Source of the DNA: Micromonospora sp. Llam0
GTDB lineage: Bacteria > Actinomycetota > Actinomycetes > Mycobacteriales > Micromonosporaceae
Assembly: GCF_003751085.1 (NCBI RefSeq)
Contig: NZ_RJJY01000001.1
Span: 1,364,001-1,428,000, forward strand
Reading direction: 5' to 3'
DNA: 64,000 bases
Every line of letters begins with the position of its first letter. Positions within the stretch are counted from its first letter, which is position 1. This document shows, one piece after another, positions 2,412-39,590 of the stretch. The position numbers were made by a program, and so were the translations under genes. The notes beneath the pieces were generated by a model. It had not been told where the DNA came from. It ran no database searches and worked only from the letters and a program-made list of their open reading frames with translations.

Positions 2412-3353
2412 TTGACCGTCGCCGCCACCACCCCGATGTCCCAGACCGCGCTGCTCGTCGAGCTCGAACCGGTGGTCGCCGAGAACCTTGACCGGCACCT
2501 CGGCCTGGCCAAGGAGTGGTTCCCGCACGAGTACGTGCCGTGGAGCGACGGGCGGACCTTCGACGGCCTGCTCGGCGGCGAACCGTGGTCGCCGGAGGAC
2601 ACGCAGATCCCGGACGTCGCCCGTACCGCGCTGATCGTCAACCTGCTCACCGAGGACAACCTGCCCTCGTACCACCGCGAGATCGCCACCCTGTTCGGTC
2701 GTGACGGCGCCTGGGGCACCTGGGTGCACCGGTGGACCGCCGAGGAGGGCCGGCACGGCACCGCCATCCGGGACTACCTCACCGTCACCCGGGCGGTGGA
2801 TCCGGTCGCGCTGGAGCGGGCCCGGATGGTGCACATGTCCAACGGGTACGCCAACCAGCACGACGACGAGGTGCTGCACTCGCTGGCGTACGTGTCGTTC
2901 CAGGAGCTGGCCACCCGGATCTCGCACCGCAACACCGGTCGGGCCACCGGTGACCCGCTCTGCGAGCGGTTGCTGTCCCGGGTCGCCGCCGACGAGAACC
3001 TGCACATGATGTTCTACCGCAACCTGCTCGGCGCGGCGTTCGAGCTGGCGCCGAGCCAGGCGATGCGGGCGGTGGCGGATGTGGTCGCCGACTTCCAGAT
3101 GCCGGGCGTGGGCATCGAGGGCTTCGCCCGCAAGTCGGTGGCGATCGCCATGGCCGGCATCTACGACCTGCGTCAGCACCACGACGAGGTGCTCGCGCCG
3201 GTGCTGCGCCAGTGGGACATCTGGAACGTCACCGGGCTGGACGCCGACGGCGAGGCGGCCCGGGACCAGATCGCCGCCCAGATGAACCAACTGGACACCG
3301 CCGCGTCCCGGTTCGAGACCCGGCGGGAGGAGCGGCGCGCCCGCGGCCGGTGA
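2412..3353 (+). CDS. Acyl-ACP desaturase (ferritin-like, DesA family)
   Basis: A 313-residue soluble fatty-acid desaturase of the ferritin-like di-iron class, which puts a cis double bond into acyl-ACP. The iron ligands are visible as E-E-x-x-H (E-E-G-R-H-G near residue 115) and D-E-N-L-H-M near 198, with another carboxylate on a neighbouring helix. The N-terminal W-F-P-H-E-Y-V-P-W segment is typical of actinobacterial DesA proteins. The start is TTG at 2412, backed by GGTAGGGAGAA 6-16 bases upstream; ATG at 2436 is a weaker alternative. It is a single-gene unit with a nested palindromic operator in front and a strong terminator behind. Likely role: membrane fluidity. Confidence 0.9.
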   Translation: MTVAATTPMSQTALLVELEPVVAENLDRHLGLAKEWFPHEYVPWSDGRTFDGLLGGEPWSPEDTQIPDVARTALIVNLLTEDNLPSYHREIATLFGRDGAWGTWVHRWTAEEGRHGTAIRDYLTVTRAVDPVALERARMVHMSNGYANQHDDEVLHSLAYVSFQELATRISHRNTGRATGDPLCERLLSRVAADENLHMMFYRNLLGAAFELAPSQAMRAVADVVADFQMPGVGIEGFARKSVAIAMAGIYDLRQHHDEVLAPVLRQWDIWNVTGLDADGEAARDQIAAQMNQLDTAASRFETRREERRARGR

Positions 3354-10736: not shown

Positions 10737-11591
10737 CTAGGCCCCGGTTCCGGCGGCGGCGTGCCGCTGGTGGTAGGTGCGGACCCGGTCCTCCACCTCG
10801 GCGCGCAGCGCCAGGAACTTCGGCAGCCGTTTGACGGCCAGGTCCCGTGGCCCGCCGTCCCGGTCCGGCGGCAGCTCCACCGGCAGGTCGGCGGCGACCC
10901 GGCCCGGGTCGCTGGCCAGCACCACCACCCGTTGACCGAGGAAGACCGCCTCCTCGACGTCGTGGGTCACCATCACCACGGTGGTGCCGGTGTCGGCCCA
11001 CACGCGGCGGACGAACATCTGCATGTCCTCCTTGGTCTGCACGTCGAGGGCACCGAACGGCTCGTCGAGCAGCAGCACCCGCGGTTCACAGGCCAGCGCC
11101 CGGGCGATCGCCACCCGTTGGCGTTGCCCGCCGGAGAGCTGCTTTGGCAGCGCGTGCCGTAGCCCGGTCAGCCCGGTCTCGGCCAGGTACCAGGCGACCC
11201 GCCGGGCCCGTTCGGCCCGACTGATCGGCAGCAGCTCCAGCCCGAACGCGACGTTGCGTTCCACCGTCCGCCATGGATACACCGCACCGCTCTGCAGCAC
11301 CAGCCCCCGGTCCGGACCCGGCCCGGTGACCGGCGCGCCGTCGAGCAGCACGCTGCCCCGGCTCGGTGGCGCCAGCCCGGCGATCAGCGACAGCAGGGTC
11401 GACTTGCCCGACCCGGAGGCGCCGACCAGGCAGACGAACTCGCCCCGGCGTACCGCCAGATCCACCCCGTCGAGTGCGCGCAGCGACCCGCCTGCGGCGG
11501 TCCGGAAGTCCTTGCCGACGCCGTCGAGACGCACCAGTGGCGCATCGGCGGGCGGGGCTGTGCCTGTGCCTGCGGTTTCGGCTTCTTTCAT
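10737..11591 (-). CDS. ABC transporter ATP-binding protein (SsuB/TauB type, likely guanidine uptake)
   Basis: A 284-residue ATPase of the nitrate/sulfonate/taurine class. Walker A G-A-S-G-S-G-K-S-T, Q-loop L-V-L-Q-S-G-A-V-Y-P-W-R-T, signature L-S-G-G-Q-R-Q-R-V-A-I-A-R and Walker B V-L-L-L-D-E-P-F-G-A-L-D are all intact. Start is ATG at 11591, overlapping the permease stop (ATGA); the longer open frame upstream is a shadow of the permease. It is the last gene of the riboswitch-controlled operon. Transporters of this class are recurrent members of the guanidine-I riboswitch regulon, so guanidine is the inferred substrate. Confidence 0.85.
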   Translation of the reverse strand: MKEAETAGTGTAPPADAPLVRLDGVGKDFRTAAGGSLRALDGVDLAVRRGEFVCLVGASGSGKSTLLSLIAGLAPPSRGSVLLDGAPVTGPGPDRGLVLQSGAVYPWRTVERNVAFGLELLPISRAERARRVAWYLAETGLTGLRHALPKQLSGGQRQRVAIARALACEPRVLLLDEPFGALDVQTKEDMQMFVRRVWADTGTTVVMVTHDVEEAVFLGQRVVVLASDPGRVAADLPVELPPDRDGGPRDLAVKRLPKFLALRAEVEDRVRTYHQRHAAAGTGA

Positions 11592-12460
11592 CCGGCCCAC
11601 CTCCCGACCCGGTCGCGGGTGGTCCGCAACGCCAGGTCGATCGCCACCCCGATCAGGGCGATCACGATCAGTACGGCGAAGATGTTGTCGAGCTGGTTGA
11701 ACCGCTGCGACCGGACGATCCGGTAGCCCAACCCGGACTGGGCGTTGATCAGCTCGGCGACCACGACGAAGTTCCATGCCGCCGCCGCGTTGACCCGGAT
11801 CGCGTCGATCATGCCGGGCAGCGAGTGCGGCACGATCACCTTGCGCAGCACCTCGAAGCGCCGGGCACCCAGGGTGTACGAGACGTCGATCAGCCCGGCC
11901 GGCACGGTGCGGACCACGTTGGCGGTCATCAGGGTGTTGAAGAAGACCGTCGCGATGAAGATCAACGCCACCTTGGACGGCTCGCCCAGCCCCAGCCAGA
12001 TGATCAGCAACGGGATGAACGCGCTGGCCGGCAGGTACCGCAGCAGGCCGATCATCGGCTCCAGCGCCGCCCGACCGGCCTGGAAGCTGCCCATCAGCAG
12101 GCCGAGCGGCACCGACACCGCCACCGCCAGGCCGAAGCCGCGCAGCACCCGGCCGACGGTCGCGGCGGTGTCGGTCCACAACTGACCCGTCCGGGCCATC
12201 TCCACCCCTGCCGCCACCGACTGCAGCGGCGACGGCAGGAAGTCCGGCTGCCCGTCGACCAGCATGCTGCCGATCTGCCAGGCGGCCAGCGGCACCACGA
12301 TCGAGGCGACCGTCAACGTCCAGCGACCGGCCGCCGGGATCGGCGTCCGGATGGCCAGCAGCGCCGGGACCCGGCGGGCCGGGCGCCGCCGGGGCAGCGG
12401 CCCCCACGACGCCCGGCCCGCACCGTCGGTGGCCGCAGCCGGCTCCCGGGTGACGGTCAC
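11588..12460 (-). CDS. ABC transporter permease (SsuC/TauC type, likely guanidine uptake)
   Basis: A 290-residue inner-membrane permease with about six hydrophobic helices after a roughly 45-residue charged N-terminus. The cytoplasmic EAA loop is seen as A-R-R-F-E-V-L-R-K-V-I-V-P-H-S-L-P near residue 200. It overlaps the binding-protein gene upstream (GTGA) and the ATPase gene downstream (ATGA), consistent with tight co-translation of a three-part importer. Substrate inferred from riboswitch and gdmH-like context only. Confidence 0.85.
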   Translation of the reverse strand: MTVTREPAAATDGAGRASWGPLPRRRPARRVPALLAIRTPIPAAGRWTLTVASIVVPLAAWQIGSMLVDGQPDFLPSPLQSVAAGVEMARTGQLWTDTAATVGRVLRGFGLAVAVSVPLGLLMGSFQAGRAALEPMIGLLRYLPASAFIPLLIIWLGLGEPSKVALIFIATVFFNTLMTANVVRTVPAGLIDVSYTLGARRFEVLRKVIVPHSLPGMIDAIRVNAAAAWNFVVVAELINAQSGLGYRIVRSQRFNQLDNIFAVLIVIALIGVAIDLALRTTRDRVGRWAG

Positions 12461-13491
12461 GGCGAGACCGCCGCCACGAACTGCCCGTCGAGCAGCCCGT
12501 CCAGCGGCGGTGCCTCGTCGACCAGACCAGTAGCCACCAGGAACTCGGCGATCGATCGGGCCTGGAAGTCCAGGTTGGCCGGGGTGTCGCCCGGTGCGAA
12601 CGCCGCCTGGTTGTCGGCCAGGTCGAAGATCGTCGTCCCGGCGTCGTACGTGCGGTAGTCCTCGACGCTGACCCCGGCCTGCGCCGCCATGATCTCCACC
12701 GCCTCGTCCGGGTTGTCGGCGATCCAGCCCAGGGTGTCGAACCAGGTGTCCACCACCGCCTGGACCTGCTCCGGATGCGCGGCCACGAACGCCGAGTCGA
12801 ACACCAGGTGGTCCGGGATCGCGCCGGGGTGCTCCGCCGAGGTGGCGATCGCCCTGCTGCCCTCGCGGCCCAGCGCGGTCGTGGTGAACGGGGCGAACGC
12901 GCCGACCGCGTCGACCTGCCCGGCCAGGAACGCGGCGGCGGCCGCGTCGGTCAGCAGCGGGCTGATCTCGACGTCGTCGGCGCTCAACCCGGCCTCGGCC
13001 AGCGCCAACAGCAGCAGGTAGTGGTCGACCGTGCCCTCCTCGATCGCCACCCGCTTACCGGCCAGGTCGGCCACCGAATCGATCCCCGGCGCGGCGATGA
13101 TCTGGTCGTTGCCGGTCGAGTTGTCGTTGACCAGCACCACGGTCTGCGTCGCGCCGCCGCTGACCGACGACAGGGTGTCGTTGAGGGTCTGGCTGTTGGC
13201 GTCCAGGTTGCCGGTGGCCAGCGCGGTCAAACTGTCGGTGTAGCTGTCGAAGTAGGTCAGCTCGACGTCGACGCCGTTGGCTTCGAACAGGCCCTGCTCC
13301 TGCGCGACCTGCCAGGGAAACCAGCCCGGCCAGGCGCTGAAGCCCAACCGTACGGTGGTCGAGCCGTCGCCGTCGGCGGCGGAACCGTCGTCGCCGCAGC
13401 CGGCGGCGGTGACCAGCAGCGTGGCCGCGCAGACGGCGGCGCTCAGCGCCCGGGTGGGGGAGCGGCGGGAAGATCCGGCGGTACGTCGCAT
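12457..13491 (-). CDS. ABC transporter substrate-binding lipoprotein (NMT1/SsuA type, likely guanidine)
   Basis: A 344-residue extracytoplasmic binding protein. It has an N-terminal lipoprotein signal (R-R-T-A-G-S-S-R-R, hydrophobic run, T-A-A-G-C lipobox, Cys near residue 32) and the NMT1/SsuA fold, with L-G-F-S-A-W-P-G-W-F-P-W opening the first lobe and D-L-A-G-K-R-V-A-I-E-E-G-T the hinge region. Family members bind sulfonates, nitrate, thiamine precursors or small cations. Position between the guanidine-hydrolase-like gene (60 bases upstream) and its permease points to guanidine. Confidence 0.85.
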   Translation of the reverse strand: MRRTAGSSRRSPTRALSAAVCAATLLVTAAGCGDDGSAADGDGSTTVRLGFSAWPGWFPWQVAQEQGLFEANGVDVELTYFDSYTDSLTALATGNLDANSQTLNDTLSSVSGGATQTVVLVNDNSTGNDQIIAAPGIDSVADLAGKRVAIEEGTVDHYLLLLALAEAGLSADDVEISPLLTDAAAAAFLAGQVDAVGAFAPFTTTALGREGSRAIATSAEHPGAIPDHLVFDSAFVAAHPEQVQAVVDTWFDTLGWIADNPDEAVEIMAAQAGVSVEDYRTYDAGTTIFDLADNQAAFAPGDTPANLDFQARSIAEFLVATGLVDEAPPLDGLLDGQFVAAVSP

Positions 13492-13551
13492 CTCTATGTC
13501 CTCCTGCGGAAAGGGACTTACGGGGGATCGGCGTCGCGGTGACTCAGTGGC

Positions 13552-14718
13552 TCAGTGGCGGGGCAGATGCCCGGCGCGGACCAGACAGCCGAGGGTGTCG
13601 CAGATGACCCGGGTGGCGATCAGCGAGGTGATCTCGGCGTTGTCGTACGGCGGCGAGCACTCCACCACCTCGATGCCCGCCAGGGGCTTCTCGGCGATCA
13701 GCTGGATGAACTTGAGGACTTCGCGGGGCAGGAAGCCACCCGGTTCGGGCCAGCCGGTGCCGGGCACGAACGCGGCGTCCAGACAGTCCACGTCGAACGA
13801 CAACCAGACCGCCTCGGCACCGTCCCAGGCGACTTCGAGGGCCTTGGCGGCGGCGGCCTCGATGCCCATCTCGACGCAGTCGGTGACCGTCATGATCGTG
13901 GTGCCGCGTTCCCGGCCGGCCTTGACCCCGGGGCGGGGGGCCTGCCAGCCGCCGATGCCGATCTGCACCAGGTTCTTCGGCGGCACGTTCGGGATGTCGG
14001 TGGCGTGGAACCACGGGGTGGTGTGCATCCGCTCGTCGAGGTCGGTCTCCTGGGTGTCGACGTGCCGGTCGAAGTGGATGATGCCCAGGTTGCCGTCGAG
14101 GTGTTCGGCGACGCCGCGCACCGTCGGGTAGCCGATCGAGTGGTCGCCGCCGAGCACCACCGGGAACGCCCCGGAAGCGTAGACGTGGCTGACCGCCTTG
14201 GAGATCTGGTCGAAGGTCTTCTCGATGTTCGCCGGGATGGTGAAGACGTCCCCGAGGTCGGCGATCGTGATCGACTCACGCAGGTCGACGCCGAGTTCGA
14301 ACGAGTACGGCCCGTACAGCGCGGAGATCTTGCGGATGCCCTGCGGCCCGAACCGGGTCCCCGAGCGGTAGGTCGTACCGCCGTCGAACGGCGCGCCGAG
14401 CACCGCCACGTCGTATTCGCCGCAGCGGCGCACGTCCTCGACGTACGGTGCCTTCAGGAAGGTGTTGATCCCGGCGAAGTGCGGCAGCTCGCCACGGGAG
14501 AACGTCGGGATCCGCTTGTCGACGATCGAGTCGGCGCCGGGCAGGCCGTACTCCAGGCCCCGGGCGATCTCCTCTTCCCACTTGGTGGTGGGCAGCTCGG
14601 CCTCGCGGGCGACCGCGTACGCCGCCTCCGGGCCGTAGTTGCCGTGCAGCTCGGGCTGGTCGCTGGGCTGCTGGTCACGGTGCTGGTGATTGTGGTGATG
14701 ATGGTGGTGGAAGCCCAC
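13552..14718 (-). CDS. gdmH: Arginase-fold hydrolase, probable nickel-dependent guanidine hydrolase
   Basis: A 388-residue ureohydrolase. Metal ligands are complete: G-G-D-H-S (residues 190-194), D-R-H-V-D (217-221) and F-D-V-D (D309, D311). D-R-H-V-D instead of the usual D-A-H-x-D, plus Y-G-L-P-G-A-D-S-I-V-D, F-A-G-I-N-T-F and G-T-G-W-P-E-P-G-G-F, is the pattern I recall for guanidine hydrolases (GdmH, Synechocystis Sll1077) rather than agmatinases. Reaction: guanidine plus water gives urea and ammonia. The GTG at 14718 is set by GGAGGTG just upstream; a longer frame to 14832 would translate the riboswitch. The N-terminus has six consecutive His (residues 4-9) and two more by residue 13. First gene of the operon. 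Agmatinase is the alternative, made unlikely by the riboswitch. Confidence 0.85.
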   Translation of the reverse strand: MGFHHHHHHNHQHRDQQPSDQPELHGNYGPEAAYAVAREAELPTTKWEEEIARGLEYGLPGADSIVDKRIPTFSRGELPHFAGINTFLKAPYVEDVRRCGEYDVAVLGAPFDGGTTYRSGTRFGPQGIRKISALYGPYSFELGVDLRESITIADLGDVFTIPANIEKTFDQISKAVSHVYASGAFPVVLGGDHSIGYPTVRGVAEHLDGNLGIIHFDRHVDTQETDLDERMHTTPWFHATDIPNVPPKNLVQIGIGGWQAPRPGVKAGRERGTTIMTVTDCVEMGIEAAAAKALEVAWDGAEAVWLSFDVDCLDAAFVPGTGWPEPGGFLPREVLKFIQLIAEKPLAGIEVVECSPPYDNAEITSLIATRVICDTLGCLVRAGHLPRH

Positions 14719-14767
14719 GGGCACCTCCGAATGAGGGCCTGGCTGAGGCACAGCCAGACATCCGGCT

Positions 14768-14905
14768 GCCTCCCGGGCTTTTGTCCCGCCGTGGAACGCC
14801 GCCCGCCACGCTGGCGGGTCCGACGTCTGCACCTCTCGGACCTGTCCCGTCCCCGGCTGCCCGTCTCTGGCTGCCCGGCGGCGGCGGAACCCTAGGTGCG
14901 CCTCA
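14768..14905 (-). ncRNA. Guanidine-I riboswitch (ykkC class)
   Basis: On the minus strand the conserved blocks appear in order: CTAGGGTTCCG (14895-14885), GGTCCGAGAG (14842-14833) and GGCGGGACAAAAGCCCGGGA (14790-14771), separated by pairing segments. These are the signature of the guanidine-I aptamer (from recall of the family). Downstream, CTGGCTG (14757-14751) and CAGCCAG (14745-14739) form a 7-bp hairpin, and CCTC just before GGAGG could mask the ribosome binding site of the hydrolase gene. No U-run follows, so control may be translational. Confidence 0.93.
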
Positions 14906-14948
14906 CCGTTGGTGAGTCACCCCGGAGTAGACGCGCTTGTGGTTTCGG

Positions 14949-15896
14949 TCACTTTGCTGACCCGTTGCCGTCGGGTATCGGCTGCGCGCGGGCAGCCAGG
15001 TCGGACCAGACCCGCTCGTACGCGGCGACGTGCGCCGGCTGGTCGAGGTACATCGTCCCGGTCAGGGTGCCGAGCCGGACCAGCCCCGACCCGGCCGGCT
15101 GCCGTCCGGGGACCGTCGTGGCGGCGGCGAAGCACAGCAGGGTGAACGAGTTGGTCATGCCGGCGTGCGCGCCGCCGGCCAGCGGCAGCGTCCGTACCGA
15201 GATTCCCGGCCTGATCGCGAGCGCCCGCAGGTGGTCGAGTTGCGCCCGCGCCGTCTCGGCGTCGCCGACGGTACGCCGCAGCGCGCCCTCGTTGACGATC
15301 GCCTGCACCGCCGGCGGATGCTGGTGGGTCAGCAGGTGCCGCTGCCGCGCCGCCAGCTGGTCGAGGCGGGCGGCGGTGTCGTCGTCGCTGCGCAGACCGG
15401 CCGGGCACCGCAGCAGCGCCTCTGCGTACCCGGGGGTCTGCAGCAGGTCCGGTACCGTCGCCTGGCCGTAGCAGCGGATCAGCGTCGCGGACTGTTCGAA
15501 CACCGGGTACGGGTCGGCGTCGATCGGCAGTCCGGCCAGCGCGTCGTGCCACCAGCGGCCGCCGTTGGGGCGGTCGATCTCCGCTGCGAGGGCGAGCAGC
15601 CGTTCCCGGGTCTCGTCGTCGGCCTGGTACAGCCGGCACATCGCTGACATGTCCGCTTCGTTCCAGCGGACCCGCGGGTCGCCGGCTTCGATCCGCCAGA
15701 GCGTGCTGTTGCCGCGTCGCAGCTTGTCGGCGGCGACGTCCTGGGACAGCCCGGCCTCGTACCGCAGCGCCGCCAGGCACCGCCCCACCTGACGCCGCAG
15801 CAGGGCCGTCCCGCCGGCCTGCGCGTTGGTGCCCGCCGTCCGGGCAGCCCGCCCGTTGTACGCCCCGGCCCGTCGGCCGTCACCCCTGCCAGTCAT
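14949..15896 (-). CDS. XRE family HTH protein with DUF5753 C-terminal domain
   Basis: A 315-residue regulator of the large actinobacterial family often encoded beside a small DUF397 partner. The helix-turn-helix spans roughly residues 35-85 (A-L-R-Y-E-A-G-L-S-Q-D-V-A-A, then S-T-L-W-R-I-E). The rest is the DUF5753 domain, with P-D-L-L-Q-T-P-G-Y-A-E-A and S-V-R-T-L-P-L-A-G-G-A-H-A-G-M. No DUF397 gene is adjacent. Divergent from a 62-residue HTH gene with an inverted repeat between. It ends about 40 bases before the riboswitch on the same strand. Target unknown. Confidence 0.82.
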   Translation of the reverse strand: MTGRGDGRRAGAYNGRAARTAGTNAQAGGTALLRRQVGRCLAALRYEAGLSQDVAADKLRRGNSTLWRIEAGDPRVRWNEADMSAMCRLYQADDETRERLLALAAEIDRPNGGRWWHDALAGLPIDADPYPVFEQSATLIRCYGQATVPDLLQTPGYAEALLRCPAGLRSDDDTAARLDQLAARQRHLLTHQHPPAVQAIVNEGALRRTVGDAETARAQLDHLRALAIRPGISVRTLPLAGGAHAGMTNSFTLLCFAAATTVPGRQPAGSGLVRLGTLTGTMYLDQPAHVAAYERVWSDLAARAQPIPDGNGSAK

Positions 15897-16152: not shown

Positions 16153-16285
16153 GCCGCGTACCGCTGCGGTTCCGTAGTGGGGATCGACATTTCCGCACGC
16201 TGGCGTGGCTTCCCTGTGGCACGTGGTGCCCAAGATGCGGGAACGCGCTCCCGAATTACGAGACGGCGGGTCTATCGTCGGGGGC

Positions 16286-17086
16286 ATGGCAGCCGTATAC
16301 ACGCATGGTCATCACGAGTCGGTGCTGCGCTCCCACCGCTGGCGTACCGCCGAGAACTCGGCCGCGTACCTGCTTCCGCACCTGCGGCCCGGCCAGGCGC
16401 TGCTCGACATCGGCGCCGGTCCCGGCACCATCACCATGGACCTCGCCGCGCTCGTCGCCCCCGGCCGGGTCACCGCCACCGAGGTCACCGACGAGGCGCT
16501 GTCACTGTCCCGCGCCGAGGCGCGGGCCCGGGGCGTCACGACTGTCGACTTCACCACGGCCGACGTACACGAGCTGCCGTTCCCCGACGACGCGTTCGAC
16601 GTGGTCCACGCCCACCAGGTCCTCCAGCACGTCGCCGACCCGGTCCGCGCGCTCGCCGAGATGCGCCGCGTCTGCCGGCCCGGGGGAGTGGTCGCGGCCC
16701 GTGACAGTGACTACGACCGCTTCGCCTGGCACCCCGCCGTACCCGAGCTCGACGAATGGCTCGCGCTCTACCGGGCGACCGCCCGCGCCAACGGCGGCGA
16801 ACCGGACGCCGGCCGCCGCCTGCTCTCCTGGGCACGGGCCGCCGGGTTCGGTGGCGTCACGCCCGGCGCCTCCGCCTGGTGCTACGCCACCGACGAGGAC
16901 CGCCGCTGGTGGGGGACCATGTGGTCGGAGCGTATCGTCGCCTCCGAGATGGCCCGGCAGATCGTCGCCGCCGGCACCGCCACTCACGCCGACCTGCAGC
17001 GCCTCTCCGCCGGCTGGCTCCGCTGGGCCGACGCCCCGGACGGCTGGTTCGCCATCCTGCACGGCGAAATTCTCTGCCGTGCCTGA
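16286..17086 (+). CDS. Class I SAM-dependent methyltransferase
   Basis: A 266-residue UbiE-like methyltransferase. Motif I is L-D-I-G-A-G-P-G-T-I-T-M-D-L near residue 45, with the acidic ribose-binding residue in T-A-T-E-V, and a later D-V-V-H-A-H-Q-V-L-Q-H-V and M-R-R-V-C-R-P-G-G-V. The start at 16286 follows TCGGGGGC; an in-frame ATG at 16205 has no ribosome binding site. Acceptor unknown. It lies about 60 bases before the epimerase gene and might belong to the biosynthetic set that follows, or be independent. Confidence 0.82.
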   Translation: MAAVYTHGHHESVLRSHRWRTAENSAAYLLPHLRPGQALLDIGAGPGTITMDLAALVAPGRVTATEVTDEALSLSRAEARARGVTTVDFTTADVHELPFPDDAFDVVHAHQVLQHVADPVRALAEMRRVCRPGGVVAARDSDYDRFAWHPAVPELDEWLALYRATARANGGEPDAGRRLLSWARAAGFGGVTPGASAWCYATDEDRRWWGTMWSERIVASEMARQIVAAGTATHADLQRLSAGWLRWADAPDGWFAILHGEILCRA

Positions 17087-17146
17087 CCCGGCGGGCCTGA
17101 TCGATCGCCGTGGATTATCGGCGTGGTGCGTGACAAGCTGATTCGC

Positions 17147-18232
17147 ATGGAGCTCGACGTCGGTCGGATGACCCTGCGTCTGTTGACGGTGTTCCGGAGT
17201 TCGCAGCACTCCTACGACTCGACGGACACCTGCCTGGTGACCGTCGTCCACGACGGCGTCACCGGCGTGGGTGAAGGCACACCGGCCTGGGCGCACGGCG
17301 AAACCGTCGAGCAGGTCGTCGCGGCGGTCGCCGAACACGGCAAAGACGTCCTCGGCCCGGACCTGTCCGATCCGGACCGGGTCCTGGATCGGGTGGCCGA
17401 CTGGGACGGACCGGTCGGTGCGCGGATGGCACTCGACGGCGCGGTGCACGACTGGCTGGGCCGGTCCGCCGGCATGCCGACGTGGCAGTTGTACGGCGTA
17501 CCGCGCATCCTGCCCGAGCCCACCGGGTACACGATCGGGCTGGGCAGCGTCGAACAGACCCTGGAGCTGGTGGCGAACGCCCCGCCGGTGGGCGCGTTCA
17601 AGATGAAGGTACGCGGTGCCGGGGACCTCGACCGGCTGGCCGCCGTCCGTGCGGTCACCGACCTGCCGGTGCGGATCGACCCCAACGAGGCGTGGGACCT
17701 GCGGACCGCGCAGGAACTGACCCCGGCCCTGCGCGCCCTCGACATTCAGCTCGTCGAGCAGCCGTTCCCGAGAGACGCGGTCGACGCCTACCGCCGCTAC
17801 CGTGACGTGCCCGACCGGCTGCCGGTCTTCCTGGACGAGGGCTGCACCGACGTGGACAGTGCCCGGGCAGCCGCCGGCCTGGCCGACGGGGTGGTGGTCA
17901 AGCTGGCCAAGTCCGGTGGGGTGCGGGCCACCCGACGGGTGATGGAGGCCGCCCGCCAGGCGGGTCTGTCGGTGATGCTCAGCTGCAACTGCGAGTCGGA
18001 ACTCGCGTTGAGTCAGGCCGCCCTGCTGGCGCCGCTGGCCGACCGCATCGACATCGACAGTCAGTTCCTGCTGCGTGATCCCCCGTTCCGCGGCCTGGGC
18101 CTCGACCAGGGGCGGATCGTCCTCGGCGACGCCCCAGGGCTGGGTGTGCTGCCGTCCGACCAGCACGCCGTCGGCGTCGTCGACCTGTCGACCGGAGTCG
18201 GCGTCCGGTCCGGCGGCGGGCCGGCCGACTGA
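17147..18232 (+). CDS. Enolase-superfamily epimerase/racemase (dipeptide epimerase-like)
   Basis: A 361-residue protein of the muconate-lactonizing/mandelate racemase group. Acid-base and metal residues are visible: F-K-M-K-V (catalytic lysine), R-I-D-P-N-E-A-W (first metal Asp), L-V-E-Q-P-F (Glu), F-L-D-E-G-C-T-D (Asp) and V-V-V-K-L-A-K-S-G-G (second lysine). The two-lysine layout fits amino-acid or dipeptide epimerases; L-Ala-D/L-Glu-type epimerases are closest in pattern. ATG at 17147 is preferred; GTG at 17123 is possible. The stop overlaps the MFS start by one base, so epimerase and exporter are likely coupled. Substrate unknown. Confidence 0.82.
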   Translation: MELDVGRMTLRLLTVFRSSQHSYDSTDTCLVTVVHDGVTGVGEGTPAWAHGETVEQVVAAVAEHGKDVLGPDLSDPDRVLDRVADWDGPVGARMALDGAVHDWLGRSAGMPTWQLYGVPRILPEPTGYTIGLGSVEQTLELVANAPPVGAFKMKVRGAGDLDRLAAVRAVTDLPVRIDPNEAWDLRTAQELTPALRALDIQLVEQPFPRDAVDAYRRYRDVPDRLPVFLDEGCTDVDSARAAAGLADGVVVKLAKSGGVRATRRVMEAARQAGLSVMLSCNCESELALSQAALLAPLADRIDIDSQFLLRDPPFRGLGLDQGRIVLGDAPGLGVLPSDQHAVGVVDLSTGVGVRSGGGPAD

Positions 18233-19461
18233 TGGCAGCACCGGCCACCCCCCGCGCGGCCGCAGACACCAGTCGCTGGCCGGCACCGCGCGGGCGCGCC
18301 TTCACCCGCGCCCAGTGGGCCGTGCTGATCGGCGGATTCCTGGTCAACGTCGGCTCGTTCTCGATCTATCCGTACCTGGCCGTGCTGCTGCGGGAACGCC
18401 TGGACGTGGGCATGGCACAGGTCGGGGTGGTGCTCGGGGCGGCGACCCTGGTGCAGTTCGCCAGTGCTCCGGCGACCGCCGCGGTGGCCGAGCGGATCGG
18501 CCTGAAACGGTCCCTGGTCGCCGCGCTGCTGCTGTACAGCCTCGGTGGGGCGGCGTTCCTCGCGGGACAGCGGGTCCCGGTGCTCACCGTCGCGGGCCTG
18601 CTGCTCATCTCCGGCGGCGGATCACTGTACTCGCCGGCGTACCGCAGCTATCTGGTGCACGACGTGGGCGACGAGCACCGGCCCCGGCTGGTGTCGGCGG
18701 GCAACGCCGCAGGCAATCTCGGCATCGCGGTGGGGCCGGTGGTGGGGGCGTTGTTCGTGCACCGTCCGGCCGTGATGTTCGCTGCCGTGACGACGGTGTA
18801 CGCCGGTGTGGCGCTCGGTCACGTCTTTCTCCGCCGGGAGCGGCGGGTCGCCGACGCACCACCGGTGGAGCCGTTCCGGCGGATGCTGCACGGGGTGGCG
18901 GTGCTGCCGTTCGTCGTCACCGCCGTGTCGTTCTACGTGCACATGCAGTTCTACCAGTACCTCTCCAGTTACGCCCAGGGCCGGATGGCGACCCTGTTGT
19001 TCGGGGCGGCGATGATGGGCTACTCGCTCGGCCTGGTGGTGGTGCAGCCCCTGGTCGCCGAGCGGGTGGGGAGGATGAGCTACCCGGCGGCGGTGGCCAT
19101 CGGATTCGGTGCCCTGGCGACCGGGATGGCCGCGTTCGCGGGTGGAAACGGTCCGGCGGTCGTCGGCGGGGTCGCCGCGATCAGCGTCGGCAGCGCCGTG
19201 TTGTTCCTCAAGAACGACCTCGAAGCGTTGGCGGGGTCGAGAAGGTCGGCGACGGTGGCCTTCGGTCAGCAACGGCTCGCGGTGGGGGTCGGTTCGTTCC
19301 TCAGCGGCGTCGCCGGGGGCAGTGTGTACGGGGCGTTCGAACGCGGCGGGTTCCTGCCCGGTTTCTGGCTGGTCGTCGCGGCCCAGTGCGTCGTTCTTCC
19401 GGTGCTCGTGCTCACCGTGGGGCGATGGCTGGGGCGTCGCCCAGCACAGGACGACTTGTAG
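18232..19461 (+). CDS. MFS transporter (probable exporter)
   Basis: A 409-residue major-facilitator protein with about twelve hydrophobic helices after a short polar N-terminus (about 25 residues). The sequence L-V-S-A-G-N-A-A-G-N-L-G-I-A-V-G-P-V-V-G at helix 5 resembles the drug-export motif C region. It starts on the last base of the epimerase stop, which ties it to that pathway. Likely role: export of the product of the neighbouring biosynthetic genes, or self-protection. It is convergent with the PLP-enzyme gene, 6 bases apart. Confidence 0.85.
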   Translation: MAAPATPRAAADTSRWPAPRGRAFTRAQWAVLIGGFLVNVGSFSIYPYLAVLLRERLDVGMAQVGVVLGAATLVQFASAPATAAVAERIGLKRSLVAALLLYSLGGAAFLAGQRVPVLTVAGLLLISGGGSLYSPAYRSYLVHDVGDEHRPRLVSAGNAAGNLGIAVGPVVGALFVHRPAVMFAAVTTVYAGVALGHVFLRRERRVADAPPVEPFRRMLHGVAVLPFVVTAVSFYVHMQFYQYLSSYAQGRMATLLFGAAMMGYSLGLVVVQPLVAERVGRMSYPAAVAIGFGALATGMAAFAGGNGPAVVGGVAAISVGSAVLFLKNDLEALAGSRRSATVAFGQQRLAVGVGSFLSGVAGGSVYGAFERGGFLPGFWLVVAAQCVVLPVLVLTVGRWLGRRPAQDDL

Positions 19462-19467
19462 TCGCGC

Positions 19468-20619
19468 TCATCCGGTCGGCGCGGGCCAGTCGGTTCCGGG
19501 CCAGTCGGTTCCGGGGCGGTCGATTCCCGGACGGTCGATTCCCGGGCGGCCGGCGACGGCGGCGGGCTGCGGGTCCTGGCCGGCCGAGGGCGGGCGGGCA
19601 CGTCGCGCCCACGGCATGGTCGACCAGGGTTGGGCCAGCTCGTCTAGGGAGGTGATCTCGACCGGCTCCAACGTGTCCATGTCGAGTGCTTCGCGGTGGC
19701 GGGCGAAGACCTTGTCGACGTAGCGATGCCCGGTGTCGGCGCCGATCAGCAGGTGCATCCGTTCCGGGTGCCGGCGGGCCTCCCACCGGGCCGCGAGATA
19801 CGCCGCACCGGTGGAGAGACCGGCGAAGACCGCATGAGACCGCATCAGCGCGATGGTGCCGGCCATGGCATGCCGGAAGGCGATCCAGTGCACCTGGTCG
19901 TACAGTTCGTGGCGGACGTTGTCGAAGGGGATGGCGCTGCCGATCCCGGCGATGATCGCGTCCGGATCCGGGAACCGCTCACTGCCGAAGCTGACGCTGC
20001 CGAACGGTTGCACACCCACGAGCCGGGTCGACGGCTCGTGAGCGCGGATCGGCAGAATCAGTCCGGCGCTGGACGCGCCGGTGCCGACGCTGGCGACGAC
20101 GGTCAGCGGGACCTGTGGTACGGCGGCCCGGACGAGGGTCGCCAGTTCGGCGTAGCCGAGTCGGTGCACCGGGTCGTGGTACTGGCGCATCCAGTGCATG
20201 CCGGGGTTGGCGCGCAGGAGCTCCTGCACCCGCGCCACCCGTCGGTGCTGGTCAAGTCGTAGATCGCTCTCGACGGGCATCTGGTGCACGGTGGCGCCGA
20301 GGATCTCCAGCTGCGACCGGATGGTCGGGGTCACCGTGGTCGAGGCGACGATGTGGCAGCGCAGTCCGTACCGGTGACAGGCCATGGCCAGCGCGAGGGC
20401 GTAGATGCCGCTGGAGCTGTCGATGAGGGTGTCGCCGGGGCGGACGGTCCCCGCCGCCAGCAGCGTCCGTACCGCGCCGAGGGCGGCGTAGACCTTCAGG
20501 GTCTCGAACCGGGCGAGGACCAGGGTGTCCGACAGGCGGATGAGGCTCGGAGTCTTGATGGCATCGGTGACGTGCAGGTGTACCGGTGGCGGGGGCGTCG
20601 ACGGGCCCGTGGACGGCAT
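19468..20619 (-). CDS. PLP-dependent fold-type II enzyme (cysteine synthase/SbnA-like)
   Basis: A 383-residue cytoplasmic enzyme of the tryptophan-synthase-beta family. The Schiff-base lysine is K42 in F-E-T-L-K-V-Y-A-A-L, the phosphate/substrate loop S-S-S-G-I-Y-A-L-A-L-A follows near 68, and V-A-S-V-G-T-G-A-S-S near 185 is the glycine loop. Relatives make cysteine, diaminopropionate or other beta-substituted alanines. The last 25 residues are a tandem repeat (R-P-G-I-D twice, then R-P-G-T-D-W and P-G-T-D-W) that is foreign to the family and encoded by the DNA repeat at 19483-19542. ATG has AGAGGAG upstream. Divergent from a methyltransferase gene. Confidence 0.82.
   Translation of the reverse strand: MPSTGPSTPPPPVHLHVTDAIKTPSLIRLSDTLVLARFETLKVYAALGAVRTLLAAGTVRPGDTLIDSSSGIYALALAMACHRYGLRCHIVASTTVTPTIRSQLEILGATVHQMPVESDLRLDQHRRVARVQELLRANPGMHWMRQYHDPVHRLGYAELATLVRAAVPQVPLTVVASVGTGASSAGLILPIRAHEPSTRLVGVQPFGSVSFGSERFPDPDAIIAGIGSAIPFDNVRHELYDQVHWIAFRHAMAGTIALMRSHAVFAGLSTGAAYLAARWEARRHPERMHLLIGADTGHRYVDKVFARHREALDMDTLEPVEITSLDELAQPWSTMPWARRARPPSAGQDPQPAAVAGRPGIDRPGIDRPGTDWPGTDWPAPTG
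19483..19542. repeat. Four 15-bp tandem repeats in the 3' end of the PLP-enzyme gene
   Basis: Two perfect copies of GGGCCAGTCGGTTCC (19483, 19498) are followed by two variants (GGGGCGGTCGATTCC at 19513, CGGACGGTCGATTCC at 19528). In frame on the minus strand they encode a five-residue repeat at the C-terminus. Confidence 0.9.
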
Positions 20620-20874
20620 GGGCTGATCGCTCCTCTGACGTTTGTTGCATTGTCCCTGGTGGATGTGCTTGTTTTGGTGGAAGACTCCTGTCGCTCCGGT
20701 GTGGAGGCCGTGTCGAGTTGTTCTGCTGACAGGTTGGTCGCGCCGGAAGGCGGATTGGTTCCTGTGCTCTACCCCGTTGCGGTAGTGGTCAGTTTTCTTC
20801 GGTCAACGGGGAACTTCCGTACATCGTCGAGCGACCTGTAAGGCGTCAGTCGTCGCGCGAGTTCGGAGCTGCCG
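20620..20874. promoter_or_regulatory. Divergent promoter region between PLP enzyme and methyltransferase
   Basis: A 255-base, less GC-rich region that must hold both divergent promoters. AGAGGAG for the PLP gene and GGAG before the methyltransferase start are visible. I found no clear palindrome or consensus hexamer pair that I would defend, and no Fur, Zur or Nur box of good quality. Confidence 0.45.
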
Positions 20875-21654
20875 ATGGAGTGGTTTGCAGACGACGGGTT
20901 CTGGGTGGACTTCGCTGGCGCGTTGTTCGCCCCGCACCGTCAGCAGGAGGCCCGGAGCTGGGTGGCGACCTCTCCGCTGCTGGAGGTCACGGCTGGGACC
21001 AGCGTGCTCGACCTCGGGTGCGGTCCGGGCACCTACGCCGTCCCGCTCGCCGCACGCGGTGCCAAGGTCACCGGGGTTGACCTCAGCGCGGCCATGCTGG
21101 ACCGTGCCGACCGGGCCAGTGCGCAGGCCGGCGTGCCGGTACGTCTGGTCCGTGCCGACATGCGGGAGTTCGTGGAACGGGACCGCTACGACGTGATCAT
21201 CAGTATGTACACCTCGTTCGGGTACTTCACCGATCCGGCGCAGAATCAGCTCGTGCTGCGCAATGCCTGGCAGAGCCTGGTGCCGGGCGGCCGCCTGCTG
21301 CTGGACCTGTTCAGCAAGGAGATCTTCGCCCGGTGGGCGGGAACCCCGAAAGTCGTCGAGGTGGACGGCGGATACCTGGTCATGCGGGATACCGTCCTGG
21401 ACGACTGGACCCGGTTCCGCAGCGACTGGACCCTGATCCGGGGCGACACCGCCCGGCACGCCTTCTTCGAACAGTTCGTCTACAGCGCCGCCGAGATTGG
21501 CACCATGCTGAACGCCGCCGGATTCACCGACATCACCTGTTTCGGCGGCTTCGCCGGGGAACCGTACGACAATCACGCGCAGCGGCTGATCGTGCAGGCG
21601 CGCCGTCCCGTGCAGGCGAACCGTCCTCGGCAGGCCGAGGAGGCGGGGACGTGA
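20875..21654 (+). CDS. Class I SAM-dependent methyltransferase
   Basis: A 259-residue methyltransferase with motif I V-L-D-L-G-C-G-P-G-T-Y near residue 45, acidic V-T-G-V-D-L-S near 65, R-A-D-M-R-E-F and a later L-V-P-G-G-R-L-L-L-D-L-F. N-terminal W-F-A-D-D-G-F-W is unusual and may be the acceptor cap. The ATG at 20875 follows GGAGCTGCC. Its stop overlaps the ATP-grasp gene (GTGA), so the two probably act in one pathway. Confidence 0.85.
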   Translation: MEWFADDGFWVDFAGALFAPHRQQEARSWVATSPLLEVTAGTSVLDLGCGPGTYAVPLAARGAKVTGVDLSAAMLDRADRASAQAGVPVRLVRADMREFVERDRYDVIISMYTSFGYFTDPAQNQLVLRNAWQSLVPGGRLLLDLFSKEIFARWAGTPKVVEVDGGYLVMRDTVLDDWTRFRSDWTLIRGDTARHAFFEQFVYSAAEIGTMLNAAGFTDITCFGGFAGEPYDNHAQRLIVQARRPVQANRPRQAEEAGT

Positions 21655-22874
21655 CCATCGCGTCGCTGGAGTCGCTGACGTTCGGCCTCACCCGGCTGCG
21701 TGACGCCGCCGCCGAGGCCGGACACCGGCTGTGCCTGCTCACCGGCGACCGGTCGGTCTACGCGTACGAACTCGACCGGCTCGGACTCGACGACGTGACG
21801 GTGATCGACGTCGACACCACCGATGTGGTCGCCTGTGCCGCCGCCCTTGACCGACTGCCCGACCTCGCAGGCCTGGTCAACTCCACCGACACGTGGATGT
21901 TGCCCGGGGCGACGTTGGCGGCCCGGTACGGCCTGCCCACCCTCGGCCCACAGGTGGCGCGGACATTACGGGACAAGGCGCAGGTCCGTACCCTGCTGCA
22001 CCGGGCCGGCCTCAGCCGTGCCGACGCGCGCAGCGTGGCACCCACCGGCGAAGCGGTCACCGAAGCGGTCGCGGCGACCGGCTACCCGGTGATCGTGAAG
22101 GACTCGGCGGGTACCTCGTCCCGGTCGGTGTGGCTGGTCCGCGACGACGCCGAACGCGACCGGACCGCCCGCCAGGTCGCCGACGCCGCCCTGCTGGGCC
22201 GGCACCTGGTGGTAGAACCGTACTTCCCGGGCCCGGTCTACAGCGTCGAGACGGTCAGCTGGCGCGGGCACACCAGGCTGCTCGGGATCGCCGTGCACAT
22301 CCACACCCCCGAACCTGTCCGCCGGGAGGAGGCCGTCGCCTTTCCGGTCGCGTTCCCGCCGGCCGAGTCGGACCGGCTGGCGACCTGGATAGGGGAGGTC
22401 CTCGCTGCGGTCGGGTTCACCGACGGCGTGGCACACACCGAGTTCGCCCACACCCCGGCCGGCCCGGAGGTCGTGGAGATCAACGGTCGGATCGCTGGCG
22501 CGGTCATCGGGGAGATGATGTGCCGGTCGCTCGGGGTGAACGTGTACGCCGCGGTGACCGACATCGCGCTCGGCCGCCGGCCCCGGCTGCTCGACGCCCC
22601 ACTGGGCGCCGACCGTGGCTACGGCATGACGTTCCTGCATCCACCGGCGCCGGGCCGACTCGCCGGCTGGTGCGGACCCGAGCGGCTACCGCTGTTCCCC
22701 GGGGGCCCGGAGTTTTTTCCGACCGCCCAGGTCGGTGACCGGATCGTCCACCTCGCCGACCAACGCGGCTGCACCGCCCTGGTGATGGCCGAGGGGCCCA
22801 CCGCCGAGATCGGCCTCTACCACTCGCTGGCCGCCGCCGGCACCGTCACCCACGAGATGCGACCGCTGGACTGA
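21651..22874 (+). CDS. ATP-grasp ligase (amino-acid ligase-like)
   Basis: A 407-residue ligase. The ATP-grasp core covers about residues 105-310: L-R-D-K-A-Q-V-R-T-L-L-H-R-A-G, the ATP-binding V-I-V-K-D-S-A-G-T-S-S-R-S-V, E-P-Y-F-P-G-P-V-Y-S-V-E and the metal-binding E-V-V-E-I-N-G-R-I. Relatives (BacD, DcsG and other L-amino-acid ligases) join a carboxylate to an amine through an acyl phosphate. The start is GTG at 21651, with GAGGAGG at 21637-21643 and a GTGA overlap with the methyltransferase; earlier in-frame codons belong to the shadow frame. Product unknown; an amide or dipeptide is inferred. Confidence 0.85.
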   Translation: MTIASLESLTFGLTRLRDAAAEAGHRLCLLTGDRSVYAYELDRLGLDDVTVIDVDTTDVVACAAALDRLPDLAGLVNSTDTWMLPGATLAARYGLPTLGPQVARTLRDKAQVRTLLHRAGLSRADARSVAPTGEAVTEAVAATGYPVIVKDSAGTSSRSVWLVRDDAERDRTARQVADAALLGRHLVVEPYFPGPVYSVETVSWRGHTRLLGIAVHIHTPEPVRREEAVAFPVAFPPAESDRLATWIGEVLAAVGFTDGVAHTEFAHTPAGPEVVEINGRIAGAVIGEMMCRSLGVNVYAAVTDIALGRRPRLLDAPLGADRGYGMTFLHPPAPGRLAGWCGPERLPLFPGGPEFFPTAQVGDRIVHLADQRGCTALVMAEGPTAEIGLYHSLAAAGTVTHEMRPLD

Positions 22875-22893
22875 AGACCCGGACAGGAGCCCC

Positions 22894-23652
22894 ATGAGCA
22901 CGTACGGACCGGAGACCTACGGCGACCGCAACGCCGACGTCTACGACGAGTGGCACGCCGACCTCGACCCGACCGACGCCGTCGACTGCCTGGCCGACCT
23001 GATCGGGCACGGTCCGGCCGGCCCGGTCCTCGAACTGGCCGTCGGCACCGGCCGGGTCACGATCCCGTTGGCGGGTCGCGGAATCGATCTGCGGGGCATC
23101 GACGCCTCCGAGGCGATGGTGGCCCGCATGCGGGCCAAACCGGGCGGTGACCGGATTCCCGTCACCATCGGCGACATGGCCGACGTCGATCCCGGCACCG
23201 GCGACCGGTTCGCCATGGTCTTCGTCGTCTTCACCACCTTCTTCTTCCTGATGACCCAGGAGGACCAGGTACGGTGCTTCGCCAACGTCGCCCGGCGGCT
23301 GCTGCCCGGCGGGCTGTTCGTGCTGGAGTGTCTGGTGCCCGACCTCGCCCGCTACCAGCGGCAGCAGAGCGTCGACGCCCACCGCGTCGACCACGACCAC
23401 GTCCGCCTGGTCGCGGTCCGCCACGACCCCGTCGACCAGCGTTTCGACGGACAGCACATCCTGATCAGCAACGACGGCATGCGGCTTGCCCCGGTGTCGA
23501 TGCGCTACGCATGGCCCTCCGAACTCGACCTGATGGCCCGCCTCGCCAGCCTGCGCCGTCGACACCGGTGGGGTGGCTGGCGTCGGGAGCCCTACCTCGG
23601 CACCGGCACCCACGTCACCGTCTACGACAAGCCGGCCGGGCCGGACGCGTGA
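22894..23652 (+). CDS. Class I SAM-dependent methyltransferase
   Basis: A 252-residue methyltransferase. Motif I reads V-L-E-L-A-V-G-T-G-R-V-T-I-P-L, followed by L-R-G-I-D-A-S-E-A-M, then F-V-V-F-T-T-F-F-F-L and L-L-P-G-G-L-F-V-L-E. The start follows CAGGAGCCCC 19 bases after the ATP-grasp stop, so it is the third gene of a likely methyltransferase-ligase-methyltransferase unit. It is convergent with the importer ATPase gene only 2 bases away. Acceptor unknown. Confidence 0.84.
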   Translation: MSTYGPETYGDRNADVYDEWHADLDPTDAVDCLADLIGHGPAGPVLELAVGTGRVTIPLAGRGIDLRGIDASEAMVARMRAKPGGDRIPVTIGDMADVDPGTGDRFAMVFVVFTTFFFLMTQEDQVRCFANVARRLLPGGLFVLECLVPDLARYQRQQSVDAHRVDHDHVRLVAVRHDPVDQRFDGQHILISNDGMRLAPVSMRYAWPSELDLMARLASLRRRHRWGGWRREPYLGTGTHVTVYDKPAGPDA

Positions 23653-35104: not shown

Positions 35105-35120
<16 letters not shown>

Positions 35121-35920
35121 GCCCCGGCCCGGTCTGGTGCGGCCCGGTCTGGTTCGGCCCGGCCGAGGCGGTCTGGTTTGGCCCGGTCGAGTTCGGCACG
35201 GACGCCGCGGGCGGTCGGGCCGGTCGCGGTGACCAGCATCGCCGGCCCGCCGGCCAGCGGCAGCCGGGCCGCGCCGGGGCCGAGCGGAATGGCTGCCGGG
35301 GGCCCGCCGGCCGCCCACTGCGGCCGCACCACCAACACCGAACCGGTCGCCTTCGCCCCGGCGAGCACCGCCGGCCCGGCCCAGCCGTCGGCGCGCGGGC
35401 CCACCGCCAGGTCGGTGCGCAGCACCGTGCGGCCCGCGTACCGGACGGTGGTGTCGATCCGGGCGTCGCCGGACGGCTCACCGTCGCGCCCGCAGACCAA
35501 CTCCTCCCGCCACACCAGGGCCGCGCCGTCGGCCAGCTCCACCACCGACCGGGACAGGTGGTGGCAGCCGGCGGCGGCGATCAACGGCTCCGGCAGCCAG
35601 CGCAGCTCGCCGCCGGCCGCGACCCGGACCAGCATCTGCAGCGTCGACCGCCGGCCGTCGGGCCCGGGCAACGCCAGCGACGCCGCGACAGTACGCAGAC
35701 ACACCCGCGCCCCCGGCCCGACCTCGACGTCCAGCCGCAGGTCGTCGCCGCCGAGCGGGCCGGCCGCCGCGCCGACCAGATGCACCTGGACTTCGCCGCC
35801 GTCGCCGGCCACTGCCGGGCCGGTGCGGCGCAGCACCAGCGGCGGCTCGCCGCGCAGGCAGACCAGCCGGGTCCGCCCGCCGGCGTCGACCTCGGCGACC
35901 AGCCGGGCGTGTGCCCGCAT
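35105..35920 (-). CDS. ureD: Urease accessory protein UreD
   Basis: A 271-residue scaffold protein that joins UreF and UreG to load nickel into apo-urease. UreD features: an all-beta pattern, G-D-D-L-R-L-D-V-E-V-G-P-G-A-R-V, the P-E-P-L-I-A-A-A-G-C-H-H region and V-W-R-E-E-L-V-C-G-R. The last 30 residues are Asp/Arg/Pro/Ala repeats (K-P-D-R, E-P-D-R, A-P-D-R) encoded by a DNA repeat and not part of the fold. ATG overlaps the ureG stop by one base. Last gene of ureABCFGD; its 3' end overlaps the UvrA-like gene. Confidence 0.88.
35126..35194. repeat. 15-bp tandem repeats at the 3' end of ureD
   Basis: GGCCCGGTCTGGTGC (35126) and GGCCCGGTCTGGTTC (35141) are near-identical, followed by degenerate units to GGCCCGGTCGAGTTC (35180-35194). 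In frame they encode the repetitive UreD tail. The array begins 5 bases after the UvrA-like stop codon. Confidence 0.8.
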
Positions 35921-36696
35921 CAGCAGGCGACCTCCGCCGGGGTCTGGGCGCGGGCCCGCAGCAGCCCACGGATCCAGTCGGCCACCGGAGCCGCCGTCCG
36001 GTCCTGCACCAGCGACAGGAACACCGTCGGCAGCTCGCCCCGGCGGGCGGCGGCGTCGCGTTCCATCACCGACAGGTCGGCGTTGACCAGCGGCGCCAGG
36101 TCCGTCTTGTTGATCACCAGCAGGTCGGCGGTGCTCACCCCCGGCCCGCCCTTACGCGGCACCTTGTCGCCGCCGGCCACGTCGACCACGAAGATCTGCT
36201 GGTCGACCAGGCCCCGACTGAACGTGGCGGTCAGGTTGTCCCCGCCGCTCTCCACCAGCACCAGATCGAGGGCGCCCAACTGGTCGGACAGGTCCTCGAT
36301 AGCATCCAGGTTGGCGGAAATGTCGTCGCGGATCGCGGTGTGCGGGCAGCAGCCGGTCTCCACCGCCCGGACCCGCTCCGCCGGCAGTACGCCGTTGCGT
36401 AGCAGGAAGTCGGCGTCCTCGGTGGTGTAGATGTCGTTGGTGACCACGGCCAGCCGCAGTTCGTCGGCGAGCGCCCGGCACAGCGCGGCGACCAGCGCGG
36501 TCTTGCCGGAGCCGACCGGCCCGCCGATGCCGATCCGCAGCGCGGGGGAGTTGTCCGGCAGCCGGGGCGGGTGCGGGTCGACCCCCGGATCGGGGTGGGT
36601 GTGTGGCACCTCCCCGTCGGTGTGCGCGTGCGGTTCGGTGTGCGCGTGCGGTTCGGCGGACCCGCCGTGGACGTGGGTGTGTGGTTCAGGACGCAA
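35920..36696 (-). CDS. ureG: Urease accessory GTPase UreG with His-rich N-terminus
   Basis: A 258-residue SIMIBI GTPase that delivers nickel to urease. P-loop G-P-V-G-S-G-K-T at 59-66, then V-E-T-G-C-C-P-H (the C-P-H metal motif), L-V-E-S-G-G-D-N and N-K-T-D-L. The first 45 residues contain ten histidines in H-x-H pairs, with E-P-H-A-H-T duplicated by an 18-bp repeat. This could store nickel in place of UreE, which is absent. The start is TTG at 36696, inside the ureF end, with GGAGG upstream; the frame has no better start that keeps the His tract. Stop overlaps ureD by one base. Confidence 0.9.
36619..36654. repeat. 18-bp tandem duplication in the His-rich part of ureG
   Basis: GGTGTGCGCGTGCGGTTC occurs twice back to back (36619-36636, 36637-36654). 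Read on the minus strand it encodes E-P-H-A-H-T twice, adding two H-x-H metal motifs. Confidence 0.92.
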
Positions 36697-37375
36697 AGAG
36701 ACGCACCTCCCAGGTGGCGTGGTGTTCGGCGTCGACCTCCGGGATCGGGGCCGAGCCGGCGGGCAGGTCGTCGACCGGCCGGTCGGCCAGGGCGGCCGCT
36801 CCGGCGGCGACCGCGTCGATGTCCGGCGCGAGCCGGGCCAGCAGGCCGTGCACCGCGTACGGGTCGAGGCCGAGCAGCCGCACGGCGGCGCTGGCCGGTC
36901 CGGTGACCGTGGTGTACGCGGCGGCCAGCGCAGCCTCGGCCGGGCCGAGCCCGGCGGCGGCTGCGACCACGCCGAGCGCGACCGGCTGGTGGCGGTCCCG
37001 GGGGCCGCCCGCCGGCAGCGCCCAGATGCCGCGTCCGGCGCGCAGCAACGCCCGACCCTGTGCCCGCGACGCGCGGCGCAGCGCGGGCGACGGGGTACGC
37101 GCGTCGATGCCTTCGTCGAGCGCGTCCAGCCGGCCAGGGCCGGCCCCGTCGGCGGTCGCCCCGTCGGCGGCTGCGGCTGCGCTGGCCGCGGCGGCCGCGA
37201 ACGCGGCGGCGGTGCGCCCACCGGTGCCGAGCCGGCCGGTCAGGTACGCCGCCACACCGGCCAGGTCGCGGACCCGGCCGGCGACGACGGCCGCCTCCAG
37301 CCCGCTGGAGTGGGCGTGCCCGCCGGCCGGCAGCCGGCCGTCGGCCAGCACCAGCAGCGTGGCGAGCCCGCTCAT
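36686..37375 (-). CDS. ureF: Urease accessory protein UreF
   Basis: A 229-residue all-helical accessory protein that binds UreD and acts on UreG. Diagnostic residues: [18 protein letters not shown] near the N-terminus and [16 protein letters not shown] near residue 180. The middle carries an Ala-rich low-complexity stretch (residues 57-75). It starts about 40 bases after ureC and overlaps ureG by 11 bases. Confidence 0.9.
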
Positions 37376-37414
37376 CGACGGGTCCGGACGTGACAGGTGA
37401 TCATCGGCCGGTCG

Positions 37415-39582: not shown

Positions 39583-39590
39583 TCTCGCTC

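Follow-up and report, generated by a model that had tools for sequence, protein, structure and literature searches.

We analyzed a stretch of 64,000 nucleotides from Micromonospora sp. Llam0, hereafter the window, which carries a guanidine operon on the minus strand between positions 10737 and 14906. In the order of transcription, the operon is composed of a guanidine-I riboswitch aptamer (RF00442; 14768–14906), detected as a covariance-model match under the Rfam gathering score, a Shine-Dalgarno sequence GGAGG read directly from the DNA (14724–14728), and four genes on the same strand. The first, gdmH (13552–14718), is assigned by homology to the nickel guanidine hydrolases, or guanidinases. 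It is followed by the gene of a substrate-binding lipoprotein (SBP; 12457–13491) with the TauA/SsuA fold, predicted from profile matches and alignments to bind guanidine, and by two genes identified by profile matches, coding for the permease (BPD_transp_1; 11588–12460) and the SsuB/TauB/NrtD-like ATPase (10737–11591) of an ATP-binding cassette (ABC) importer. The gdmH reading frame is open from position 14832; the GTG at 14718, with its well-spaced GGAGG, is the start and gives a protein of 388 residues. All these pieces lie where an earlier note on this DNA had placed them, including the strand. Its mention of three overlapping genes applies to the transporter, where the SBP/permease and permease/ATPase pairs each overlap by 4 nucleotides, and fails at the junction of gdmH with the SBP gene, where a 60-nucleotide gap is found. 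Upstream, a gene for an HTH_31/DUF5753 regulator (14949–15896, minus strand) ends 42 nucleotides ahead of the aptamer. Because of this short distance, the operon promoter probably lies inside the regulator gene, or else the transcript is shared with it.

The RF00442 match extends from 14906 to 14768 and covers the complete model (positions 1–107) with 50.7 bits and an E-value of 1.9e-8 in a 281-base stretch. Over the whole genome (8.9 Mb) its E-value is 1.5e-7, and it is the sole match at E ≤ 0.001 in a search that scored 150 of the 251 first-look candidates. The Rfam gathering score being 63, a default scan of the window, like routine annotation, misses the aptamer. Searched against Rfam as the earlier note had proposed, the leader thus gives no match at the gathering threshold and a full-length match in the permissive search. 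The three conserved guanidine-I blocks recognized by that note are intact in the alignment, which also contains two long inserts (28 versus 7 and 17 versus 6 model positions) that, in our reading, would account for the low score. Matches to RF00442 were obtained in 39 of 250 genomes of the same family, 26 of them above the cut-off; the six genomes of the same genus with a match score between 45.9 and 54.1 bits, all below 63. Among the 45 genomes that carry the related loci, 36 have a match (31 above the cut-off) and nine have none, and a pattern search of 81 loci, the window among them, located the leader blocks directly ahead of gdmH in 39. Since the relatives' copies upstream of gdmH score above the cut-off, we read the window aptamer as a long-looped member of RF00442 and a predicted guanidine binder. 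Guanidine-I aptamers of several members of one genus are therefore overlooked at the default Rfam threshold.

The leader can form three hairpins on the minus strand. H1 (GGGAGGCAGCCGG / CUGGCUGUGCCUCAGCC; 14741–14774), identified by a swap test and minimum-energy folding, pairs the conserved 3' GGGAG of the aptamer plus the next bases with a downstream arm and is a candidate OFF structure. H2 (GUCUGGCUG / CAGCCAGGC; 14737–14759), for which the swap test and folding give weaker support, shares an arm with H1 and is its alternative, while H3 (GGCCCUC / GAGGUGCC; 14720–14739), seen in the minimum-energy fold, covers the Shine-Dalgarno GGAGG in what is only a candidate role. The swap test compared the hairpin arms of each species with arms exchanged between species, on 26 cluster representatives with 5000 permutations. 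For H1, own arms reach −18.25 kcal/mol and swapped arms −15.39 kcal/mol (15-nucleotide left arm), none of the 5000 permutations being as good; the four arm definitions give z values of −5.37, −5.96, −3.71, and −4.78, each with 0 of 5000, and in no more than 4 of the 26 does the species' own arm rank first among all partners. These values support H1 as a conserved structure and, as it takes up aptamer bases, H1 is likely the ligand-free form of the leader. H2 ranks 14 of 5000, which is weak evidence; the mean energies of this test (about +3837) are meaningless, the short leader L066 being believed to lack the second arm and to have produced an undefined value.

H1 may either terminate transcription or act on translation. 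Under translational control, H1 and H3 would hide the Shine-Dalgarno sequence in the absence of guanidine, and guanidine would free H2 and open the ribosome-binding site. The folding of the window leader agrees with such a scheme, since the minimum-energy fold without the upstream aptamer consists of H1 and H3, and the segment deprived of GGGAG folds into H2; the swap test of H1 (z −5.96) points the same way. We nevertheless consider translational control rather unlikely. The predicted accessibility of the Shine-Dalgarno sequence does not differ between the two states (ON minus OFF, mean −0.015 over 49 leaders and −0.045 for shuffles), H3 obtains no support from the swap test, in which 1805 of the 5000 permutations do equally well (z −0.33), and the folding advantage of the window leader over shuffled sequences is modest (z −1.13, 28 of 200 as good). 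In published work (PMC12186494), guanidine-I switches are said to operate at the level of transcription. Sequestration of the Shine-Dalgarno sequence, persuasive by eye in the leaders, failed both the accessibility test and the H3 swap test and was demoted to a rival. No U-tract is present downstream of H1 in the window.

The SBP scores above the SsuA_fam subfamily cut-off and adopts the TauA/SsuA fold, in line with the SsuABC/TauABC-type importer proposed in the earlier note. It falls far short of the taurine equivalog cut-offs (TIGR01729, 56.4 against 304.25; PRK11480, 49.1 against 490), and its nearest named relatives are from Solwaraspora. Residues W54, W57, W60, D105, D123, D129, E151, D227, and W250 are identical in all 49 aligned sequences and D156 in 48 of them, whereas TauA and SsuA carry Pro at position 105, Pro or Gln at 151, and Thr or Ser at 156. 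Positions 154–156 belong to what we take to be the TauA/SsuA anion site. The invariant acidic and Trp side chains are well matched to a cationic ligand and provide a residue-level prediction of how a protein with the TauA fold could accommodate one; we infer that the importer substrate is guanidine. An importer of sulfonate, nitrate, or urea seems improbable at this place: the genes sit behind the aptamer and gdmH, an order kept in 36 of the 80 related loci for which 3 kb or more of downstream sequence was available, and the invariant Asp and Glu occupy Ser, Thr, Pro, or Gln positions of TauA and SsuA, although the residues taken alone are still compatible with urea. The sulfonate reading was demoted on this gene context together with the acidic residues.

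GdmH shows the arginase fold (PF00491, 269.8 bits) and the intact metal ligands pointed out in the earlier note: the motifs GGDH, DRHVD, and D-x-D are invariant in an alignment of 23 sequences including GdmH, and DRHVD and TGWPEPGGF are both present in the protein. In a search of the PDB, considering the best 60 of 69 matches, the guanidinase of Nitrospira inopinata (9fek; 725.7 bits, E 1.4e-217) and that of Synechocystis (7esr/7oi1; 570.4 bits, E 2e-170) are far ahead of the next solved ureohydrolase (186.6 bits, E 6.7e-54), and the alignment with Sll1077 gives 67% identity across 359 aligned residues. By alignment to 9fek, T116, H232, and W323 (native numbering) correspond to T105, H222, and W313 of N. 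inopinata, positions at which Thr, His, and Trp are the guanidinase criteria published in the accessible part of that work (PMC11410670). We conclude that the first gene is a GdmH-type guanidinase, as proposed, with predicted activity on guanidine and, by analogy, a nickel-containing active site. An agmatinase or another guanidino-compound ureohydrolase, next to a riboswitch sensing guanidine as a mere by-product, is highly improbable: such an enzyme would share the arginase fold, databases name close relatives agmatinase, and the N. inopinata guanidinase is described, in the same part of that paper, as releasing very minor amounts of urea from agmatine, but both guanidinase structures lead by more than 380 bits, the agmatinase cut-offs are missed (TIGR01230, 159.5 against 174.3; PRK02190, 215.4 against 302), the specificity residues Thr and Trp are conserved, and three other arginase-family genes of the genome could handle other substrates. 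The agmatinase identity was thus rejected on the missed cut-offs and the closest structures. Automatic names would be misleading here, as anticipated: among the best 120 of 4764 relatives of GdmH the named sequences are mostly labeled agmatinase, and the SBP exceeds the SsuA_fam sulfonate cut-off. The three other arginase-family genes are located at C2:777888–778706, C1:4675049–4675921, and C1:4382458–4382991 of the genome (G000), and one of them outscores gdmH on the Arginase model.

The second step of the pathway is provided by a urease cluster outside the operon, 20 kb away from it (35105–39893, minus strand, profile matches). It comprises ureA (39591–39893), ureB (39148–39582), ureC (37415–39151), UreG inside the open reading frame (ORF) 35920–37221, and ureD (35105–35920); the upstream part of the UreG-containing ORF has no Pfam match. 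Urease genes also accompany gdmH in some relatives: the examined flanks contain ureC in 17 of 107 oriented loci, a set with many short flanks and some genomes counted twice, and in 12 of the 58 loci flanked by 6 kb on each side. In Dactylosporangium and Phytohabitans, the urease genes come before the guanidine operon and share its strand; ureD starts 0.9–1.7 kb ahead of the gdmH core. A genome search with a urea carboxylase model gave no match above the cut-off which, together with the urease genes, fits a route from guanidine to urea to ammonia. Guanidine would bind the leader aptamer and switch on gdmH and the three importer genes, the ON direction being borrowed from characterized guanidine-I switches. 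The importer would then take guanidinium into the cell, GdmH would convert it into urea and ammonium at a nickel-containing dimetal center, and the distant urease would turn urea into CO2 and two more ammonia. Taken together, the aptamer, GdmH, and the ABC importer very probably form a guanidine-inducible operon for nitrogen scavenging and detoxification, with urease completing the pathway.

Several points weigh against this interpretation. Apart from the aptamer score below the gathering value, a search of 14600–15200 for sigma-70-type promoters found no match. The ABC set is not downstream of gdmH in 44 of the 80 loci, 21 of these being from the Nitrospira group, which makes this importer one option among several. 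Of the 58 loci flanked by 6 kb on each side, 46 show no ureC near gdmH. HypA and the UreE C-domain were not found in the genome, nor was HypB, whose model matches only the window UreG, below the cut-off. The operon, called complete in the earlier note, is so for the aptamer, the enzyme, and the importer; HypA and HypB are missing from what was found in the genome, and urease is encoded elsewhere.

Some of the loci lacking the downstream ABC set carry other transporters. An APC permease is found near gdmH in 15 of 24 Nitrospira-group loci. The 23 loci outside this group comprise five with an APC permease, three with a sodium:solute symporter, three with an upstream ABC set, one of which is only 34–43% identical, and 12 with none of these within the examined flanks. 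The symporter genes (PF00474) adjoin gdmH in L024 (9144–10610), L038 (6216–7991), and L044 (2594–4081), where they replace the ABC or APC importer, and in L044 the symporter and gdmH stand behind a guanidine-I leader. Sodium:solute symporters may represent a third type of guanidine importer. In another locus, L123 (G108:C143), a guanidine-I aptamer stands ahead of the SBP-permease-ATPase genes and gdmH was not found on the stretch examined; its aptamers lie at contig positions 6227–6338 and 2645–2745, the second 3.5 kb further on.

The N-terminal segment of GdmH, MGFHHHHHHNHQH (14680–14718, minus strand), is a natural His string. Over 54 distinct leaders, window included, the GdmH residues preceding the conserved core are 24% His (208 of 853), versus 2.6% in the core, and 18 of the 54 tails contain five or more His. 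A simple composition rule called 514 genes in the window and loci L002–L046. Ten of them have at least five His within the first 30 residues, of which seven code for GdmH and two for UreG (L005 and L006), the tenth being a further gene. Such His-richness is far from chance and common to two nickel proteins; the window UreG also has a strongly His-rich N-terminal region within its longer ORF. A nickel-collecting role of the GdmH tail is plausible. HypA, HypB, and UreE are the nickel loaders of other systems, and HypAB chaperones load GdmH in cyanobacteria. It is conceivable, if doubtful, that the actinobacterial tail collects nickel and, where HypA, HypB, and UreE are lacking, as seems to be the case in this genome, replaces HypAB, perhaps together with the His-rich UreG. 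Catellatospora, Pseudofrankia, and Paractinoplanes speak against it, as they carry both His-rich tails and HypA elsewhere; Dactylosporangium fulvum and Phytohabitans are among several close relatives whose tail is short or weak. An association of the tail with HypA absence was considered and dropped (15 HypA-positive versus 10 HypA-negative isolates, Mann-Whitney p 0.37); the comparison drew on 45 genomes (HypA in 21, 20 over the cut-off) and omitted 14 metagenome-assembled genomes and six isolates without a recognized leader. If the nickel role is true, the tail offers a way to study the nickel loading of a hydrolase in the absence of HypAB. For the chaperone-free comammox guanidinase it would be informative by analogy only, because GdmH tails of the Nitrospira group have one or two His; HypA, HypB, and UreE were likewise not found in N. 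inopinata, according to the available part of its description (PMC11410670). A literature search, which did not cover most subscription journals, found no paper on a His-rich guanidinase tail among the entries listed. This tail is the one feature of the system that may be new.

Elsewhere in the window, two Rfam matches pass the gathering threshold, 5_ureB_sRNA (38680–38976, plus strand), opposite to ureC, and ASdes (2745–2812, minus strand), opposite to ORF 2412–3353; both may be echoes of coding sequences. The region 16235–23652 resembles a small biosynthetic cluster, with successive genes for three methyltransferases, an enolase-superfamily enzyme, a pyridoxal phosphate enzyme (encoded on the other strand), an ATP-grasp L-amino acid ligase, and an MFS transporter.

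The discovery of GdmH is reportedly due to Funck et al. 2022. When compared with known systems, the Micromonospora locus resembles the operon of Synechocystis PCC 6803, for which the accessible part of the literature (PMC8390497) gives a guanidine-I leader, sll1077 (GdmH), hypAB, and the sll1080–1082 ABC importer: the same leader, guanidinase, and SsuA-type SBP, permease, and ATPase are present. Unlike in Synechocystis, hypA and hypB were not found in the Micromonospora genome, GdmH has a His-rich N-terminal segment, and the aptamer is long-looped. The operon of N. inopinata, whose enzyme (9fek) is the best solved-structure match, also has a guanidine-I leader and, as far as its available description goes, shares the lack of detected nickel chaperones; it has an APC permease in place of the ABC importer, and the N-terminal extension of its guanidinase is described as stabilizing (PMC11410670). 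Nitrospira-group tails are poor in His. With respect to TauABC and SsuABC, the SBP differs by its invariant acidic residues at Ser, Thr, Pro, or Gln positions and by missing the taurine cut-offs. Operons combining guanidine-I, GdmH, and an SsuA-type ABC importer are already published, as seen in the available parts of two papers (PMC8390497, PMC12186494). Since this gene set and riboswitch have been described for Synechocystis and others, the arrangement is a known one, now in an actinobacterium, for which it offers a clear example of guanidine assimilation.
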